In this document: positions 5,787 through 47,125 of the stretch, piece by piece
Layout of the letters: every line of letters begins with the position of its first letter
Numbering within the stretch: the stretch's first letter is position 1
Assembly (NCBI GenBank): GCA_014378765.1
Contig: JACMNA010000089.1
Coordinates: forward strand, 1-47,125
Reading direction: 5' to 3'
Source of the DNA: Bdellovibrio sp.
Lineage (GTDB): Bacteria; Bdellovibrionota; Bdellovibrionia; Bdellovibrionales; Bdellovibrionaceae
DNA length: 47,125 nucleotides
Notes under the pieces: model-generated
Seen by the model: the letters and a program-made list of their open reading frames with translations, nothing else
Told to the model about the DNA's origin: nothing
Databases searched by the model: none
Translations under genes and position numbers: made by a program

Positions 5787-6571
5787 TGTTTAACGTTTCT
5801 CAGTTGAATGAAATTCAAATCTTAATGTTTGGGCTTATTCTACTAAGAATGTCGGCGTTTGTTATTTCGGCAGCGATTTTTAGCTCGCCGACAATTCCCG
5901 TTTCGCTTAAAGTTTTATTTTCGGTCGTATTGACCTTAGTGGTTTTTAAAACGGTGGCGACGAATGAAGCGTTAGTTCGATTGCATGAGTTAGAAAATAG
6001 TCTATTAATTTTAGCCGCGCGCGAATTAGCAATTGGTATTGCCCTGGGATTTATTACCCGCATGTTTTTTTTCGCGCTATCTATGGCCGGCGAATTAGTT
6101 TCGGTTTCTTTGGGCTTAGGCCAAGCGCAAATATTTAATCCGATGGTGGGTTCAATGGGAAATGCCATGGAGCAGTTTTACGTAATTATCGGCACGCTTA
6201 TTTATCTTTCATTAAACGGCCACCACATGATGATTCACGGAATCGTGCAAAGCTTTTCAATTAGCGAAGTGGCTTCCATTCATTTTAATTACGAATCATT
6301 CGTGGAAATGACGATGAAAGCTCAAGGCTTTTTCGTGATGGGTATTCGGATTGCCGCCCCAGTTTTAATTTCAATGATCATGGTACAAGTTGGAGTCGCC
6401 TTATTAAGTCGTGCGGTTCCGCAAATTAACGTGATGTCGACGTCAGCTTCCATCACGACGCTAATTGGTTTTACAATTATTTTTATTAGTTTGCCGCTAC
6501 TGGTTATGCAGATGACGGGGTTGATGGATTTAACCCAGCTAGAGTTTTTTAAGTTTATAAAAGCCATTTAA
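5786..6571 (+). CDS. fliR: Flagellar export gate protein FliR
   Basis: FliR is the single-copy subunit of the FliP5Q4R1 gate. The 261-residue product has about six hydrophobic segments and FliR-family stretches such as ELAIGIALGFITRMFFFAL and FNPMVGS. Length is normal. Its start overlaps the fliQ stop by one base and flhB begins 10 bases after its stop, so the genes are probably translated in coupled fashion. Confidence 0.96.
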   Translation: MFNVSQLNEIQILMFGLILLRMSAFVISAAIFSSPTIPVSLKVLFSVVLTLVVFKTVATNEALVRLHELENSLLILAARELAIGIALGFITRMFFFALSMAGELVSVSLGLGQAQIFNPMVGSMGNAMEQFYVIIGTLIYLSLNGHHMMIHGIVQSFSISEVASIHFNYESFVEMTMKAQGFFVMGIRIAAPVLISMIMVQVGVALLSRAVPQINVMSTSASITTLIGFTIIFISLPLLVMQMTGLMDLTQLEFFKFIKAI

Positions 6572-39459: not shown

Positions 39460-40833
39460 ATGAAACTAAAAGATCTAAAGTTAAAACGTCGCTATAAATA
39501 CGCATTGTTATTTTTATTGTTGTTGATTGGCGCGACCTCGTTTCAAAACTGCAGTCCGAAACCGTTTCAAAGTGGAACGGTGACCTCGTCATCAACCGCA
39601 AAAAATTCGACCTCGATAACTCCGAATTTAAATAATTTACCAATCGTTTACCCACCACCGGCTCCAGTGGCACCGACGCCGGTGGCTCCAACCCCTAGCC
39701 CAGCACCGACGCCGACGCCGACTCCAGCACCAGCGCCCACGCCCACGCCCACGCCAAATCCAACAAATGGAATTAATTATTTCGGATTTTTTGCAGATGG
39801 CATGGAGCATGAGGGAACCGGAAATTATATTAACGAAACTTCGCCCGTAGCCAATCTTCATTTTGTAAATGCAGATACACTTGAGGGCCTGACGGTTAAA
39901 ATTAAGCAAGCTGTTTCGAAAAATAGTAAAGTTATTATTATTGCGGAAGGATACTTATTTGATTGGCAAACCGTCAAGCTGCAGGCCAATTATAAATCAA
40001 ATATTTTGAATTTAAGAAATCATTTGGCCAGTAACAATTTGCTGAGCGCCGTTGTTGGCTTTTACATGATTGATGAGCCTTATTTTAAAAACAGTGTGGC
40101 CACTAACCAAATATCCGAACAAGAAGTTTTCAATAATTTACGTTCTGCAGCTATTGAAGTTACAAATAACTTTGGGAACACCGCCATTGTATCGACCGAG
40201 GCCTTTCCAACCTTAGATAAATTTATGAGTACCGGCCAATGGTTAGGTTTTCCAACGGAATATAATTGGTTGGCATTTAATTGTTATTTAACGTACGGCT
40301 TAACGTGCAGTACCGAACAAAAATATTCGAATTACATTACTGCGTTTCGCTCGAAAATGAGCGGTAATCAGCGCTTATTTTTAACCTTAGATAATTATAC
40401 AAATATTAATCCGGTCGCTTCAATGCAGGCGCAGCTCATTGCTCGGTCTCAGTTTCAACATCAATTGGCTTTGCAATACAACGCCGTAGCGTTAGTTTCA
40501 TTTATGTATCAAGGGGCCTCTGACCGTCTGGGTGTACAAAATATGCCTGAGTTAAGAAACTATGTTTTCAATTTGGCTTCTTCAATTACCGGAAAAAGTT
40601 CTGGAGCGGCAACCACGCCGACACCGACACCAGCTGCGGGGGGTTGTACTGATTTAGAGCCGCGTTGCGAAGGAGCCGATTCGGTGCGACGTAATTCATG
40701 TGGCGATGTAACGGGTCGTTGGGTGATGGCGCCTATTTGCACAAGAACAACGTGTGAAGGGGCCGACTTTGTTCGCAGAGATTCAGACAACAAAGTTATC
40801 GAAGTTTGGGCGAATGCCCCTGATTGCCGCTAG
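39460..40833 (+). CDS. Lipoprotein with Pro/Thr linker, glycoside-hydrolase-like domain and repeated Cys module
   Basis: The start at 39460 has GGTGGGGG upstream. A hydrophobic segment ends TSFQNC, so Cys31 may be lipidated although FQNC departs from the usual lipobox. A linker of PTPTPAPAP repeats (about 60-103) follows. The roughly 270-residue domain that comes next (from GINYFGFF) contains FYMIDEPYF with D205-E206, a TIM-barrel glycoside hydrolase-like pattern. Near the C-terminus, after a second TPTPTP linker, the motif CEGADxVRR occurs twice about 30 residues apart. Overall it suggests a surface-anchored carbohydrate-acting protein; enzyme class is not established. Confidence 0.68.
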   Translation: MKLKDLKLKRRYKYALLFLLLLIGATSFQNCSPKPFQSGTVTSSSTAKNSTSITPNLNNLPIVYPPPAPVAPTPVAPTPSPAPTPTPTPAPAPTPTPTPNPTNGINYFGFFADGMEHEGTGNYINETSPVANLHFVNADTLEGLTVKIKQAVSKNSKVIIIAEGYLFDWQTVKLQANYKSNILNLRNHLASNNLLSAVVGFYMIDEPYFKNSVATNQISEQEVFNNLRSAAIEVTNNFGNTAIVSTEAFPTLDKFMSTGQWLGFPTEYNWLAFNCYLTYGLTCSTEQKYSNYITAFRSKMSGNQRLFLTLDNYTNINPVASMQAQLIARSQFQHQLALQYNAVALVSFMYQGASDRLGVQNMPELRNYVFNLASSITGKSSGAATTPTPTPAAGGCTDLEPRCEGADSVRRNSCGDVTGRWVMAPICTRTTCEGADFVRRDSDNKVIEVWANAPDCR

Positions 40834-41962: not shown

Positions 41963-42562
41963 ATGAAATTAAATAAAATAATCCTAACTCTAACTAGTTT
42001 ACTAATTTTAACTTCTTGCGGAGGCGGAGATAAAACGCCAACCAAAAAAAATAACGATACGGGAACTACAGAAACTTTTGAAACTTTAAGTGATCAGTAT
42101 GTGGAATTAGCAACAACAAAAGATAATTTGTCGATTGAGAGTTTATCAAATGGCATGGTTATGTTTTTTAAGGGGGCCCACCAATTTACGGGGCAAATCA
42201 GTGCCGCAACGCCCATGCAGCCTAGGCATCAACTAAGAATTGAATTATTTGTTAATTCAATCGTCGCCGAAAAACATACAAAAAGTTGCTCACTTATACT
42301 CGAGTCAGAGGCGCCAATTGCTAGTGCAAAGTTAAATGTGGTGAGCGGAAACTTTTTTATGATAAGTGGGGCTAACTATTCTGATAATGGTGAAAGCTAT
42401 TCCGTTTTCGCTTTATTAGAGACCTTTGGATCATTCTCTAATTCAACTTTGCTTTGTACTGATTATTTAAATTTACAGCTGAATGGCCGCCCTGGCGCCA
42501 TGACGGTTGGCGATGTAAAGTATGGAACTAACAATTTAATCTCGTTCGCGGCGCACCGCTAG
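41963..42562 (+). CDS. Lipoprotein of unknown function
   Basis: A 199-residue product. The ATG at 41963 has AGAGGAG upstream, and the lipoprotein signal ends LTSCGGG, so Cys19 is the lipidation site. A Lys/Thr/Asn-rich linker is followed by a beta-rich domain with two Cys (SCSLILE and LLCTDY) that may pair. No family is recognised. Possible promoter boxes TTGCTG (41901-41906) and CATAAT (41923-41928) lie upstream. The gene is followed by the structured leader of cti. Confidence 0.7.
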   Translation: MKLNKIILTLTSLLILTSCGGGDKTPTKKNNDTGTTETFETLSDQYVELATTKDNLSIESLSNGMVMFFKGAHQFTGQISAATPMQPRHQLRIELFVNSIVAEKHTKSCSLILESEAPIASAKLNVVSGNFFMISGANYSDNGESYSVFALLETFGSFSNSTLLCTDYLNLQLNGRPGAMTVGDVKYGTNNLISFAAHR

Positions 42563-42597
42563 TTTAGAATCCCAAATTGAGCAGGAGCTAACGGCTT

Positions 42598-42603
42598 TAA
42601 AAT
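42598..42603 (+). promoter_or_regulatory. Possible -10 box of the cti promoter
   Basis: TAAAAT here, with TTGAGC at 42577-42582 (15-base spacing, short), would start RNA near 42610, just before the left arm of the leader hairpin at 42612. The boxes are mediocre; the coincidence of the predicted start with the hairpin edge is the reason for listing it. Confidence 0.3.
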
Positions 42604-42611
42604 TGTATTAA

Positions 42612-42680
42612 CTTCTCGGTAGACAACATGTTCATCACACTTTTATTTCCTAATAAAAGGTGATTGAACTTACCGAGGAG
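42612..42680 (+). promoter_or_regulatory. Structured cti leader that hides the ribosome binding site
   Basis: Outer stem: CTTCTCGGTA (42612-42621) pairs with TACCGAGGAG (42671-42680) over ten positions, one of them G-U. Inner hairpin: bases 42630-42647 pair with 42652-42669 over 17 positions with one bulge on each side (A42639, T42665) and a TCCT loop. The right outer arm contains the entire Shine-Dalgarno GAGGAG (42675-42680), six bases before the cti ATG. The inner stem is A-U-rich. The layout is that of an RNA thermometer or a ligand- or peptide-controlled switch; which of these, if any, is inference. Confidence 0.65.
42628..42663 (+). CDS. Possible 11-codon leader peptide in the cti leader
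   Basis: An ATG at 42628 is followed by ten codons and TGA at 42661-42663, encoding MFITLLFPNKR. It spans the inner hairpin, so ribosomes translating it would open that stem. No good Shine-Dalgarno precedes it, and it may be chance. Confidence 0.25.
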   Translation: MFITLLFPNKR

Positions 42681-42686
42681 CACTGT

Positions 42687-45302
42687 ATGATATTGAGATT
42701 GTTAAACCGCTTTTGCGCCACGCTGATCATATCGTTGACAGGGATGGTGGTTCAAGCCAACTTCAATTCTGAGTACTACGATCACAATATAAAGCCAATT
42801 TTTGCTAGCCGCTGCGTGCAGTGCCACTCTTGTTACAATGCTCCTTGCCAGATGAATTTGGGTTCGATTGAGGGATTAAATCGCGGACTGGTTACAAAGC
42901 TTGACGTCTTTGATCCGGGAAAGTTAACCGCGGCTGCTCCGACCCGATTGGGAATCGATCGTAAGACGACGGAACAGTGGCGTAATTTTTCAAAAGAAAT
43001 TCATTTTAAAGCGGTCACTCAAGATACTGGAAATGCCCAAAAAAATATTGATACTTCATTTATTCTAACGTTGGTTAACCATAAGAAAAAAAATGCATCG
43101 CTAATTGTTGATGACCTAGCGCATGCTGATGAAATGGCTGAAAATTCTCGCGTGTGCCCTGATACTTCTCAAGGGTTGATTCAGCATTTACAGAATAGAC
43201 CCAATGCGGGAATGCCTTACGGTCTGCCGGCCTTATCAAATGAGCAAATTGAGAAAATAAAAATTTGGACCGAAATGGGTTCGCCGCGTGAAGATAAGGT
43301 GTCATCACTTACGGTCAAAGACTTCACCGTCATTAGAAAAGTTGAGAATTATTTAAATGCTTACTTACGTAATTCGAATTTAGAAGAAGCTAAACGGCAA
43401 AGCTTAGTAAGTCGATATATCTATGAGCATTTATTTTTAGCGCATATTTATTTACACGATGAGGCGGCACCTGAAAGTTTCTATACATTAATACGTTCAA
43501 GCAAAACTTGTGACGCTTTTGATGAAATTGCGACTCGCCGTCCGTGGGATGCCACCGGATTGCCTTTCTTTTACTGTTTGAAGCGAATTGATGCGACTAT
43601 AGTTAGTAAGACGCATATTCCATACATGTTAAATGAAAAAAAATTAGCACGATGGAACCAATTATTTTTTTCAAATCCTTGGAAAGTTTCATTCAAAGGC
43701 GAAGGGCAAAATTTGATCGATGTCGCTCCGCGAGCGGATAAATATGCTAATAACCCATTTTACATTTTTAATGATCTTCCCGCTCAAGGACGGTATCAGT
43801 TCTTATTAGACGATGCCCAGTACCATGTGAATACTTTTATTAAGGGTCCTGTTTGTAAAGGTAATGTGGCGGTCAATTCAATTGATGAGCAATTTTACGT
43901 TTTATTCATGAAACCGGAATCAGATTTAATGGTCCGTAATAAAAAATTAGTAAAAGATGCTATGTCAGATTTATTTTTACCGGCTCATGTCGGAAGTGGG
44001 CAGTGGGGCGGAGTCATTCGCGCTTATAACTTAAGAAAAGCGCGAAATAATTTTCGCGTGATACGTGATCAGTATTACGGACGCGAATTTCCTAAAGGTT
44101 ATGAAATCAATGACATTTGGAACGGTCTTGATGAATCGGCTAGTGATGCAATTTTATCGGCTAATACGAATGCGGCATTGACGGTATTTCGTCATGAAGA
44201 TTCAGCCGCCGTCGTAAAGGGCCTTGTGGGAGCAACGTCTAAAACAGTGTTCGTTTTAGACTACGCAATTTTCGAGCGAATCTATTATAATTTAGTTGTG
44301 GGCTTCGATGTTTTCGGAAATGCCGGACACCAAGTACAAACGCGTCGTTATATGTCTTTTACTAAAATGGAAGCGGAAGAAAATTTCTTAAGCTTTTTAC
44401 CAAGCAATGTGCGATCGCCAATGAGACGGTCATGGTATTTACAGTCAAGTAATACCGAAGAGAGTATAGATAAAGCAACTGGTGACAAATTAGCAGGATC
44501 GTTTCCGTTATTAGGTTTAGATAAAGGAACCCGCGTTGATTTACCGGCACTTGATCAATATAAATACGATCGTGCTAATGTAGTGGATAAACTGCGAACA
44601 CTACGTCGTTACCGCTCTGAACTAGTTAGTCAATTTAAAGTTCGTTTAGGGGCCGCGCTAATAGATAACAATCAATTAAATCCAGAAAAAGATTTAATGG
44701 TTAAATCAAAAGGTTTAAAAATAAATAATTCTCGCACCATCGGTGAATTTGAAAATGAATTGGCTAAGATAACTGATTTAACCGGCAAAAATAATGAATG
44801 GATTTTAAAAATGCCAAGTGCTTCAATTTTATTGGTTGAAAGTGCCGAAGGATCTGAAATCTATACTTTGGCCCGCAATAAAGAGCATTTAAATATTGCC
44901 TGGCTTACGCACGAATCATCACGACGTAACGAAGCGCTTGATTCGATGGTTATTTATAAAGGTGTTATGACTTCATATCCAAATCATATTTTTAGAATCA
45001 ATCTCAGCCAAGGGCGCGAGTTTTTAGAAACAATGTTAGCCATGATGGATCACCACACTTACGAAGTTTTGATTAGAAAATTCGGAAATCCACGAACGGG
45101 ACCAGGTTCTGAAAGATTTTGGGAATCATCAGATCGGTTGCACGAAGCATTCAAAAAAAATTATCCGTTAGAATACGGAGCATTCGATTACAACCGCTAT
45201 GGCAATGACTATCGCTATAACTCTGACAATGACGTCGATTTCTTAAAAAATATGAACCCCGCTTTACGTAAAGCCATTGGCAATGAATTGGATGCAGAAT
45301 GA
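42687..45302 (+). CDS. cti: Fatty acid cis/trans isomerase (Cti), haem-containing
   Basis: Cti converts cis to trans unsaturated fatty acids in membrane phospholipids, a fast way to stiffen the membrane under heat or solvent stress. The signal peptide ends about VVQA. The c-type haem site C43-V-Q-C46-H47 is followed by SCYNAPCQMNL, the Cti signature 'CHaCYDAPCQ'. The body is Cti-like through its length, with GRVE-type residues not checked in detail. At 871 residues it is somewhat longer than Pseudomonas Cti (about 760-790). The ATG at 42687 has GAGGAG six bases upstream, buried in the leader hairpin. Its stop overlaps the next gene's ATG (ATGA), indicating an operon. Confidence 0.9.
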   Translation: MILRLLNRFCATLIISLTGMVVQANFNSEYYDHNIKPIFASRCVQCHSCYNAPCQMNLGSIEGLNRGLVTKLDVFDPGKLTAAAPTRLGIDRKTTEQWRNFSKEIHFKAVTQDTGNAQKNIDTSFILTLVNHKKKNASLIVDDLAHADEMAENSRVCPDTSQGLIQHLQNRPNAGMPYGLPALSNEQIEKIKIWTEMGSPREDKVSSLTVKDFTVIRKVENYLNAYLRNSNLEEAKRQSLVSRYIYEHLFLAHIYLHDEAAPESFYTLIRSSKTCDAFDEIATRRPWDATGLPFFYCLKRIDATIVSKTHIPYMLNEKKLARWNQLFFSNPWKVSFKGEGQNLIDVAPRADKYANNPFYIFNDLPAQGRYQFLLDDAQYHVNTFIKGPVCKGNVAVNSIDEQFYVLFMKPESDLMVRNKKLVKDAMSDLFLPAHVGSGQWGGVIRAYNLRKARNNFRVIRDQYYGREFPKGYEINDIWNGLDESASDAILSANTNAALTVFRHEDSAAVVKGLVGATSKTVFVLDYAIFERIYYNLVVGFDVFGNAGHQVQTRRYMSFTKMEAEENFLSFLPSNVRSPMRRSWYLQSSNTEESIDKATGDKLAGSFPLLGLDKGTRVDLPALDQYKYDRANVVDKLRTLRRYRSELVSQFKVRLGAALIDNNQLNPEKDLMVKSKGLKINNSRTIGEFENELAKITDLTGKNNEWILKMPSASILLVESAEGSEIYTLARNKEHLNIAWLTHESSRRNEALDSMVIYKGVMTSYPNHIFRINLSQGREFLETMLAMMDHHTYEVLIRKFGNPRTGPGSERFWESSDRLHEAFKKNYPLEYGAFDYNRYGNDYRYNSDNDVDFLKNMNPALRKAIGNELDAE

Positions 45303-46843
45303 AAAAATTGACGGTTATAAAAATATTTACAATTTTAGCGCTTCAACTTTCATATTTGCCTTCGGTGTTTGCGGACGACGCATTTAAACTAGGTGATCAA
45401 GCCATCACCCGTTGCGACGATTGGAGTTTTCCACGCACTTTTGAACAATCGGTTGAAGAGTATATGGGTGCGATCGCCGAAAGAGACCCAGATTTTGGTT
45501 GTGTATCGCGAGCGGCTTGGATGGCGACCGAAGACTTATTTCGAATTGAAAACAGTGCTCGATACGACGGGCGTTTGAAAGCTTTTGAAATAGCTTATAA
45601 AGATAAAGCCAAATTGAATTTACAAACTCGTAAAGCCTATGAAGATCTAGAAATCTTGTTTCAATTTCGTTGGTTATCAGTCAACTATGAAGCAATGCGA
45701 AGTTATAAAGCCTCAAAGGTTGTGACGGGTGTTGCTGCCGCCACCAGTGTTTCATTAGCGGTTGTGGGTGCGGGACTTATTTTAAAAACGCCAGGACTTG
45801 GTAAGCTTAGTTCCACGGCGCGTCCGGCATTAATTAGAATGCTTAAGTACCTAGGACCAATGATGGTTGCCCAGGTGGCCATGTCGGGCTCAACATCTGA
45901 AAAGTTAAAAGCGCTAGCCGGCTTTAGTAAGCCACCACTTGATTTGATTGGTGGAACTGACATTACTTTTTGGAATTACTCTGATCTTCATTTGATGCGC
46001 GACATTGCCACAGTGACTGCCGAAGCGATTGCTACCGGCGCCGCCCAAGCGGGTATTACGATAATGGCACTGCGTTTAGGTATCGGCGTGGCCACTGCTG
46101 GGAAATTTTTTGGAGCGTCTTCGTTGATTGGCCTAGCTGCTTCATATCCAATCGGTAAATTGGTCGGTTATTTAGCGAATAATGCGATCACTGAAAAATA
46201 TCATGAAATTCACTCTAACGAGACCGTTAAAATGGAAACAGATTTCAACCAAGAAAATCTTAAGGACTGGCAACGAAATATTTTAGCCGCAAAGCTAACT
46301 AATAGCGCGGTCACTTGGGTGTCAACTCAAGATCTATACTTGCAAACGAGCATCGAAGAAAAAATAGAAGATTTCGCAAGATCACAAGTTTGTCTTCGTC
46401 TAACTCAGCATATAAGTGCCGATATCGCCGAAAAAAATCAAATGTGGCAAGGGCAGTCCGGTCGAACCAAAGTTGATTATCACGCGGTCGGCATTGAATC
46501 ATTAAATAAAATGTTCGATCGCGATGAAGTAAAATTGCATACGAAAGTTTACCAAGAAATTGTAGATAAGCAAGACCGCCTGATGCAAGTTCGCGAAGGC
46601 ATCTTAAAACGAATGATTATTTTAGAAAATTTAAAGAAGCCCTATTTGCGTGATTACGTGATTCAGCACCAAGTTCTGATCGACCGCTTAGACCGGTATC
46701 TCAATCACGATGGCGTTATCGATGCGGACTTGAATGAATTACGTGCGGTGCGAAGTAATTTACAGGTGAATTCACCAAAGTGGAAAGATGAAAAGTATTT
46801 AGAAGAAATCAGAGCGCAATACGGTTGTTTTAGTAATAAATAA
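45299..46843 (+). CDS. Large exported protein of unknown function encoded with cti
   Basis: Not recognised. The 514-residue product has a signal peptide (ending SVFA). A helical region with a few Cys follows (TRCDDW, DFGCVSR), then several Ala/Gly-rich hydrophobic segments in the middle (about 139-163 and 237-292) that could insert into a membrane. A long charged helical C-terminal half ends with CFSNK. Translational coupling to cti (four-base overlap, weak ribosome site of its own) suggests a common role in envelope or lipid homeostasis; this is inference. Confidence 0.65.
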   Translation: MKKLTVIKIFTILALQLSYLPSVFADDAFKLGDQAITRCDDWSFPRTFEQSVEEYMGAIAERDPDFGCVSRAAWMATEDLFRIENSARYDGRLKAFEIAYKDKAKLNLQTRKAYEDLEILFQFRWLSVNYEAMRSYKASKVVTGVAAATSVSLAVVGAGLILKTPGLGKLSSTARPALIRMLKYLGPMMVAQVAMSGSTSEKLKALAGFSKPPLDLIGGTDITFWNYSDLHLMRDIATVTAEAIATGAAQAGITIMALRLGIGVATAGKFFGASSLIGLAASYPIGKLVGYLANNAITEKYHEIHSNETVKMETDFNQENLKDWQRNILAAKLTNSAVTWVSTQDLYLQTSIEEKIEDFARSQVCLRLTQHISADIAEKNQMWQGQSGRTKVDYHAVGIESLNKMFDRDEVKLHTKVYQEIVDKQDRLMQVREGILKRMIILENLKKPYLRDYVIQHQVLIDRLDRYLNHDGVIDADLNELRAVRSNLQVNSPKWKDEKYLEEIRAQYGCFSNK

Positions 46844-46855
46844 TTAGGAGTTATA

Positions 46856-47125
46856 ATGGAACGCCGAAAATTTTTTAAAGGGACTGCTCTATCATTCGCT
46901 GCAGTGCCATTTTTGACAACGGTATTTCATTCTGCTGGCGCCCTAGCTAGCGAGCAGATGACTGATGACGAGGCTGATTATGCAAATTGGTCTGTTTCGC
47001 CTATGACCCCGGGTGGTCAAATCCGCTATAAAATTATAATGGCTCCATCGGTTCAAGCCGGTAACGAAGCTACATGTAAATTGGTGCGCTTCGTTCGCGG
47101 CGTTACCGTGCCCCGCCACATGCAC
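46856..47125 (+). CDS. Twin-arginine signal protein, N-terminal part (partial)
   Basis: The frame is open from the ATG at 46856, preceded by TAGGAG, to the right edge (90 codons). The start MERRKFFKGTALSFAAVPFL is a good Tat signal (RRKFFK followed by a hydrophobic core), with likely cleavage near GALA. Tat export implies a protein that folds, often with a cofactor, in the cytoplasm. The visible mature part ends PRHMH, which could be the start of a metal-binding motif. The family cannot be named from this fragment. It lies 12 bases after the previous stop and is probably the third gene of the cti operon. Confidence 0.7.
   Translation, partial: MERRKFFKGTALSFAAVPFLTTVFHSAGALASEQMTDDEADYANWSVSPMTPGGQIRYKIIMAPSVQAGNEATCKLVRFVRGVTVPRHMH

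Follow-up and report, generated by a model that had tools for sequence, protein, structure and literature searches.

A predicted hairpin in a Bdellovibrio cti leader that pairs with the entire Shine-Dalgarno sequence

The leader of cti, a fatty acid cis/trans isomerase gene in a Bdellovibrio sp. contig (JACMNA010000089.1; the window is the whole stretch of 47,125 nucleotides analysed here), is predicted to fold into a long hairpin that pairs with the whole Shine-Dalgarno (SD) sequence. Our preferred reading, to which we give a tentative probability of roughly 0.47, is that this lineage-specific hairpin stands at or within the 5' region of the cti mRNA and, as the folding models suggest, would hold translation initiation down. 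An SD-burying cti leader belongs to a known type, that of SD-sequestering leaders, and is at most a new, unproven example of it.

Geometry of the leader hairpin upstream of cti

The gene downstream of the hairpin had been taken for cti in a preliminary description of this DNA, and the family profile agrees, the product matching PF06934 with an E-value of 9e-186. The protein thus has the Cti family match together with a c-type haem motif, CVQCH, whose haem residues are invariant among 10 homologues, and the cti frame is intact. The features of the region are as follows.

42577..42603, forward strand: weak promoter candidate TTGAGC-15-TAAAAT, picked by eye
42606..42611, forward strand: alternative candidate -10 element TATTAA, picked by eye, no -35
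42612..42622, forward strand: left arm of the outer stem (CTTCTCGGTAG), from folding; the anti-SD stretch is 42612-42617
42623..42629, forward strand: 7-base bulge ACAACAT, on the 5' side only, from folding
42628..42663, forward strand: 11-codon ORF (MFITLLFPNKR) inside the hairpin, with no good SD of its own
42630..42669, forward strand: inner stem-loop of 17 pairs with a bulge in each arm
42670..42680, forward strand: right arm of the outer stem (TTACCGAGGAG), from folding
42675..42680, forward strand: SD sequence GAGGAG, fully paired in the model
42687..45302, forward strand: cti, encoding 871 aa that include a signal peptide and the c-type haem motif CVQCH
45299..46843, forward strand: second gene, 514 aa, whose start overlaps the cti stop

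Folding of this segment of the window predicts a hairpin of 28 pairs over bases 42612-42680, at -29.7 kcal/mol. The outer stem holds 42612-42622 against 42670-42680 in 11 pairs, including two G-U pairs, and the inner stem joins 42630-42647 to 42652-42669 around a 4-base loop (42648-42651). The SD at 42675-42680, six bases upstream of the cti ATG at 42687, pairs wholly with 42612-42617 in the predicted cti mRNA structure, as is expected of SD-sequestering translational leaders. The 96-base cti leader as a whole folds at -30.1 kcal/mol (z -5.45), and none of 200 shuffles was equally stable, so that the SD-burying hairpin of the preliminary description stands, as a prediction, beyond chance. Refolding also reproduced its coordinates and pairing, the inner stem of 17 with two single bulges, and the position of GAGGAG wholly inside the right outer arm, six bases before the start codon. 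The outer stem is likewise present, and only its size needed amendment: the count of 10 positions with one G-U omitted the terminal G-U pair.

The bulges of the two inner arms are offset, and on one side 7 extra bases shift the outer stem. In the folding model both features are more readily explained by pairing in RNA than by a symmetric operator in DNA, which favours the RNA-level reading of the repeat over the operator that had been entertained for it.

Occurrence in the genome and among other cti genes

The background consisted of 60 stretches of the same genome (724 kb including the window), in which a simple rule combining an ORF with an SD predicted 581 gene starts. Among these the cti leader ranks third by z-score and seventh by minimum free energy (MFE); a hairpin of such stability at the gene starts of this genome is rare, not unique. 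The gene start with the top z-score carries a T-run hairpin, terminator-like in appearance, and the second-ranked one may be a mis-called start. Pairing of the SD at 0.98 or above was found in 13 of the 280 same-genome starts with a recognisable SD. At a further gene start of this genome, about 6192-6260 on the minus strand of L061, a long and almost perfect inverted repeat (ATTGATCCGAAT/ATTCGGATCAAT) directly precedes the SD (z -4.5); the protein encoded there has a signal-peptide-like N-terminal start.

Not one of 3000 shuffles was as stable as the inner stem, which puts it far outside chance expectation. Of 3000 GC-matched genomic flanks placed round the fixed inner stem, 24 (0.8%) reached the total energy obtained with the outer stem, as did 260 of 3000 unmatched flanks. 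Taken alone, the outer stem is of only modest significance, and because of these matches the burying of the SD is the less secure part of the claim. Two other identities of the hairpin were rejected: an intrinsic terminator, since there is no U-run, and a dispersed palindromic repeat, since genome copies at 3 mismatches were not above a reversed control pattern and none was found in 290 relatives.

All 13 sampled genus mates lack cti, which is therefore accessory in the genus. Across the family, order and phylum, full-length Cti matches reach about 42% protein identity at best, and none of the 369 sampled genomes of the phylum contains a close relative of this cti. A search of genome contigs using an alignment recovered 80 cti loci, with identity up to 37%, where a first scan had found none; viral contigs held no cti relatives, and plasmids only matches of 33% or less. 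When the leader DNA was searched in 291 genomes, only its own locus was recovered and none of the 290 relatives gave a match. About 130 cti leaders were inspected, drawn from the family, the order, the phylum and other phyla, and neither the sequence nor the fold of this leader occurred in any of them. None of 36 other cti leaders, mostly with unremarkable z-scores, has the fold, which is likewise absent from 79 cti leaders of the named collection and from a further Bacteriovoracaceae set. Nineteen aligned Bdellovibrio-type cti leaders share sequence, yet consensus folding returned no common structure. The preliminary description had reasoned that related cti leaders lacking the pairing would count against its proposal; such leaders are what we found, though in distant relatives (about 42% identity). 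The hairpin is a single uncorroborated instance, from one genome only.

A Bacteriovoracaceae cti leader (L131, 320-386) has a similar-looking hairpin of its own (GACTCTCTC/GAGAGAGTC), which ends directly before the ATG (z -4.3). It was rejected as a counterpart, being of different sequence and missing from L131's own relatives. A few unrelated cti leaders (L131 and L217) carry their own hairpins near the SD, at a rate not clearly above background.

Temperature, transcription start and control of translation

According to the preliminary description the leader is an RNA thermometer, in which warming would open the outer stem and expose the SD. Occlusion of the SD is indeed thermometer architecture, found in the 5' UTR hairpins of ROSE and ROSE-like elements (ibpA) and in fourU thermometers (agsA type). 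High predicted stability is compatible with such a function as well: the Campylobacter czcD thermometer, a class-less SD-sequestering element, is likewise a simple hairpin that pairs its SD perfectly or nearly so, with high predicted thermostability; the cti SD stem differs from it in having no small internal loops, and the cti hairpin in being a predicted element (PMC7592916). The temperature modelling, however, speaks against melting. Predicted pairing of the SD stays at 99% between 10 and 45 °C and is still 95% at 60 °C, so that accessibility is not predicted to be gained over physiological temperatures. Opening the SD at 37 °C would cost 6.9 kcal/mol, about four times the 1.8 kcal/mol obtained in the same model for the E. 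coli ibpA ROSE element (5-base SD), and opening a 31-base ribosome site 14.3 kcal/mol, against 6.0 for the comparable site of the ibpA leader, which served as the one yardstick. Unlike ROSE/ibpA elements, the cti leader is one simple long hairpin whose SD pairing is predicted to be far more stable and nearly temperature-insensitive, and it differs from fourU elements in having CUUCUC opposite GAGGAG rather than four contiguous U. The Rfam thermometer families gave nothing relevant at gathering or permissive thresholds, with no match of the ROSE covariance models to the cti leader, and our search of a literature collection found no paper joining cti with RNA thermometers. The case for switching on Cti under stress is weak as well. 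In Pseudomonas and Vibrio, fast cis-trans conversion persists under chloramphenicol and needs no new protein, and Cti is described as constitutive, without transcriptional regulation, its activity being probably controlled by access to the membrane (review, PMC5847196). These review data, though from other lineages, take away the grounds on which a translational heat switch had been expected. A thermometer is possible but unsupported, and we regard it as very improbable.

Leader-peptide translational attenuators, such as the erm and cat leaders, have a short ORF inside an SD-burying hairpin, and the cti leader likewise contains one. Translation of the ORF at 42628-42663, or a ribosome stalled on it, would melt the inner stem, cover the right arm and free the SD; the ORF covers the last part of the bulge together with the inner stem and stops 11 bases short of the SD. 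In contrast to erm and cat, however, the cti leader ORF has no good SD and could be due to chance, an ATG ORF of at least 10 codons being present in 6% of shuffled hairpins; of all the readings, attenuation is the one we credit least. The position of the RNA start bears on a further alternative. A start directed by TTGAGC-15-TAAAAT, whose spacing falls outside the 16-18 accepted by our promoter scanner, would lie near 42610 and leave the SD buried. The -10-like TATTAA at 42606-42611 would move it to about 42618 and leave the SD largely free: in folding of an RNA truncated to start at 42618 the SD pairing drops to 0.28, and with a start there or later the SD is mostly unpaired. An RNA beginning inside the left outer arm or later would thus have a free SD, and the inner repeat, which is the strongest part of the structure, would serve either as a hairpin that stabilises the mRNA at its 5' end or as a site bound at the DNA level close to the promoter. 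TATTAA lacks a recognisable -35, though, the inner repeat is because of its bulges partly out of register with a symmetric dimer on DNA, and the outer stem would have to be a coincidence of about 1%. Such a late start appears unlikely, and is still the rival we take most seriously. It seems less probable again, though by no means negligible, that the hairpin has little or no function and is a tolerated chance or relic inverted repeat reaching the SD. This would accord with its conservation nowhere among the inspected cti leaders, with the equally stable leaders at other gene starts of the genome, and with its having been singled out from the entire window; it sits poorly with the z-score of -5.45 and with a 17-pair inner stem that no shuffle equalled.

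Under the reading that we prefer, translational restraint of cti, the mRNA would begin with, or run through, a hairpin that includes 42612-42617. There is no terminator-like site between the end of the upstream gene at 42562 and the hairpin, so that read-through RNA would carry the whole of it. A third promoter candidate, TTGAAC-16-TATGAT at 42664-42691, was dropped because its RNA start would fall inside the gene. The lack of further genomic copies beyond the control, and of any in the 290 relatives, argues that the hairpin is not a dispersed repeat. Base pairing of the outer arm with the entire SD would lower translation in the cell, and any release would be due not to melting by heat but to an event in trans, whether through a protein, a small RNA, a cut in the long inner stem or a ribosome engaged upstream. 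Most likely, judging from the modelled stability, such a brake on cti would be opened by some event of this kind or would simply be always on. That it constitutes a conditional switch, opened by a membrane-stress-linked factor, leader translation or heat, is doubtful, and we rate it much as we do the absence of function; if true, an enzyme described as constitutive would be under control at the RNA level. An mRNA leader repressing Cti translation would add, in a Bdellovibrio relative, a control layer different from and beyond membrane access (PMC5847196).

Neighbouring genes and repeats

Given the overlap of its start with the cti stop, the 514-aa gene at 45299-46843 probably forms an operon headed by cti. 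Its product has no Pfam match, and a search of 140 genomes from the order yielded just two relatives, both distant (25-28%). Elsewhere in the window, positions 39460-40833 encode a proline-rich lipoprotein-like protein. Several paralogues of it, and repeats of C-terminal pieces, occur in the same genome (C10, C23, C107, C157 and C180), whereas genus mates have few. The last 400 bases of the window (46726-47125) are 92% identical to L125 1203-1615, on contig C175 of the same genome, which points either to a duplicate or to mixed strains in the assembly; the L125 copy adjoins an ORF resembling an IS91-type transposase.
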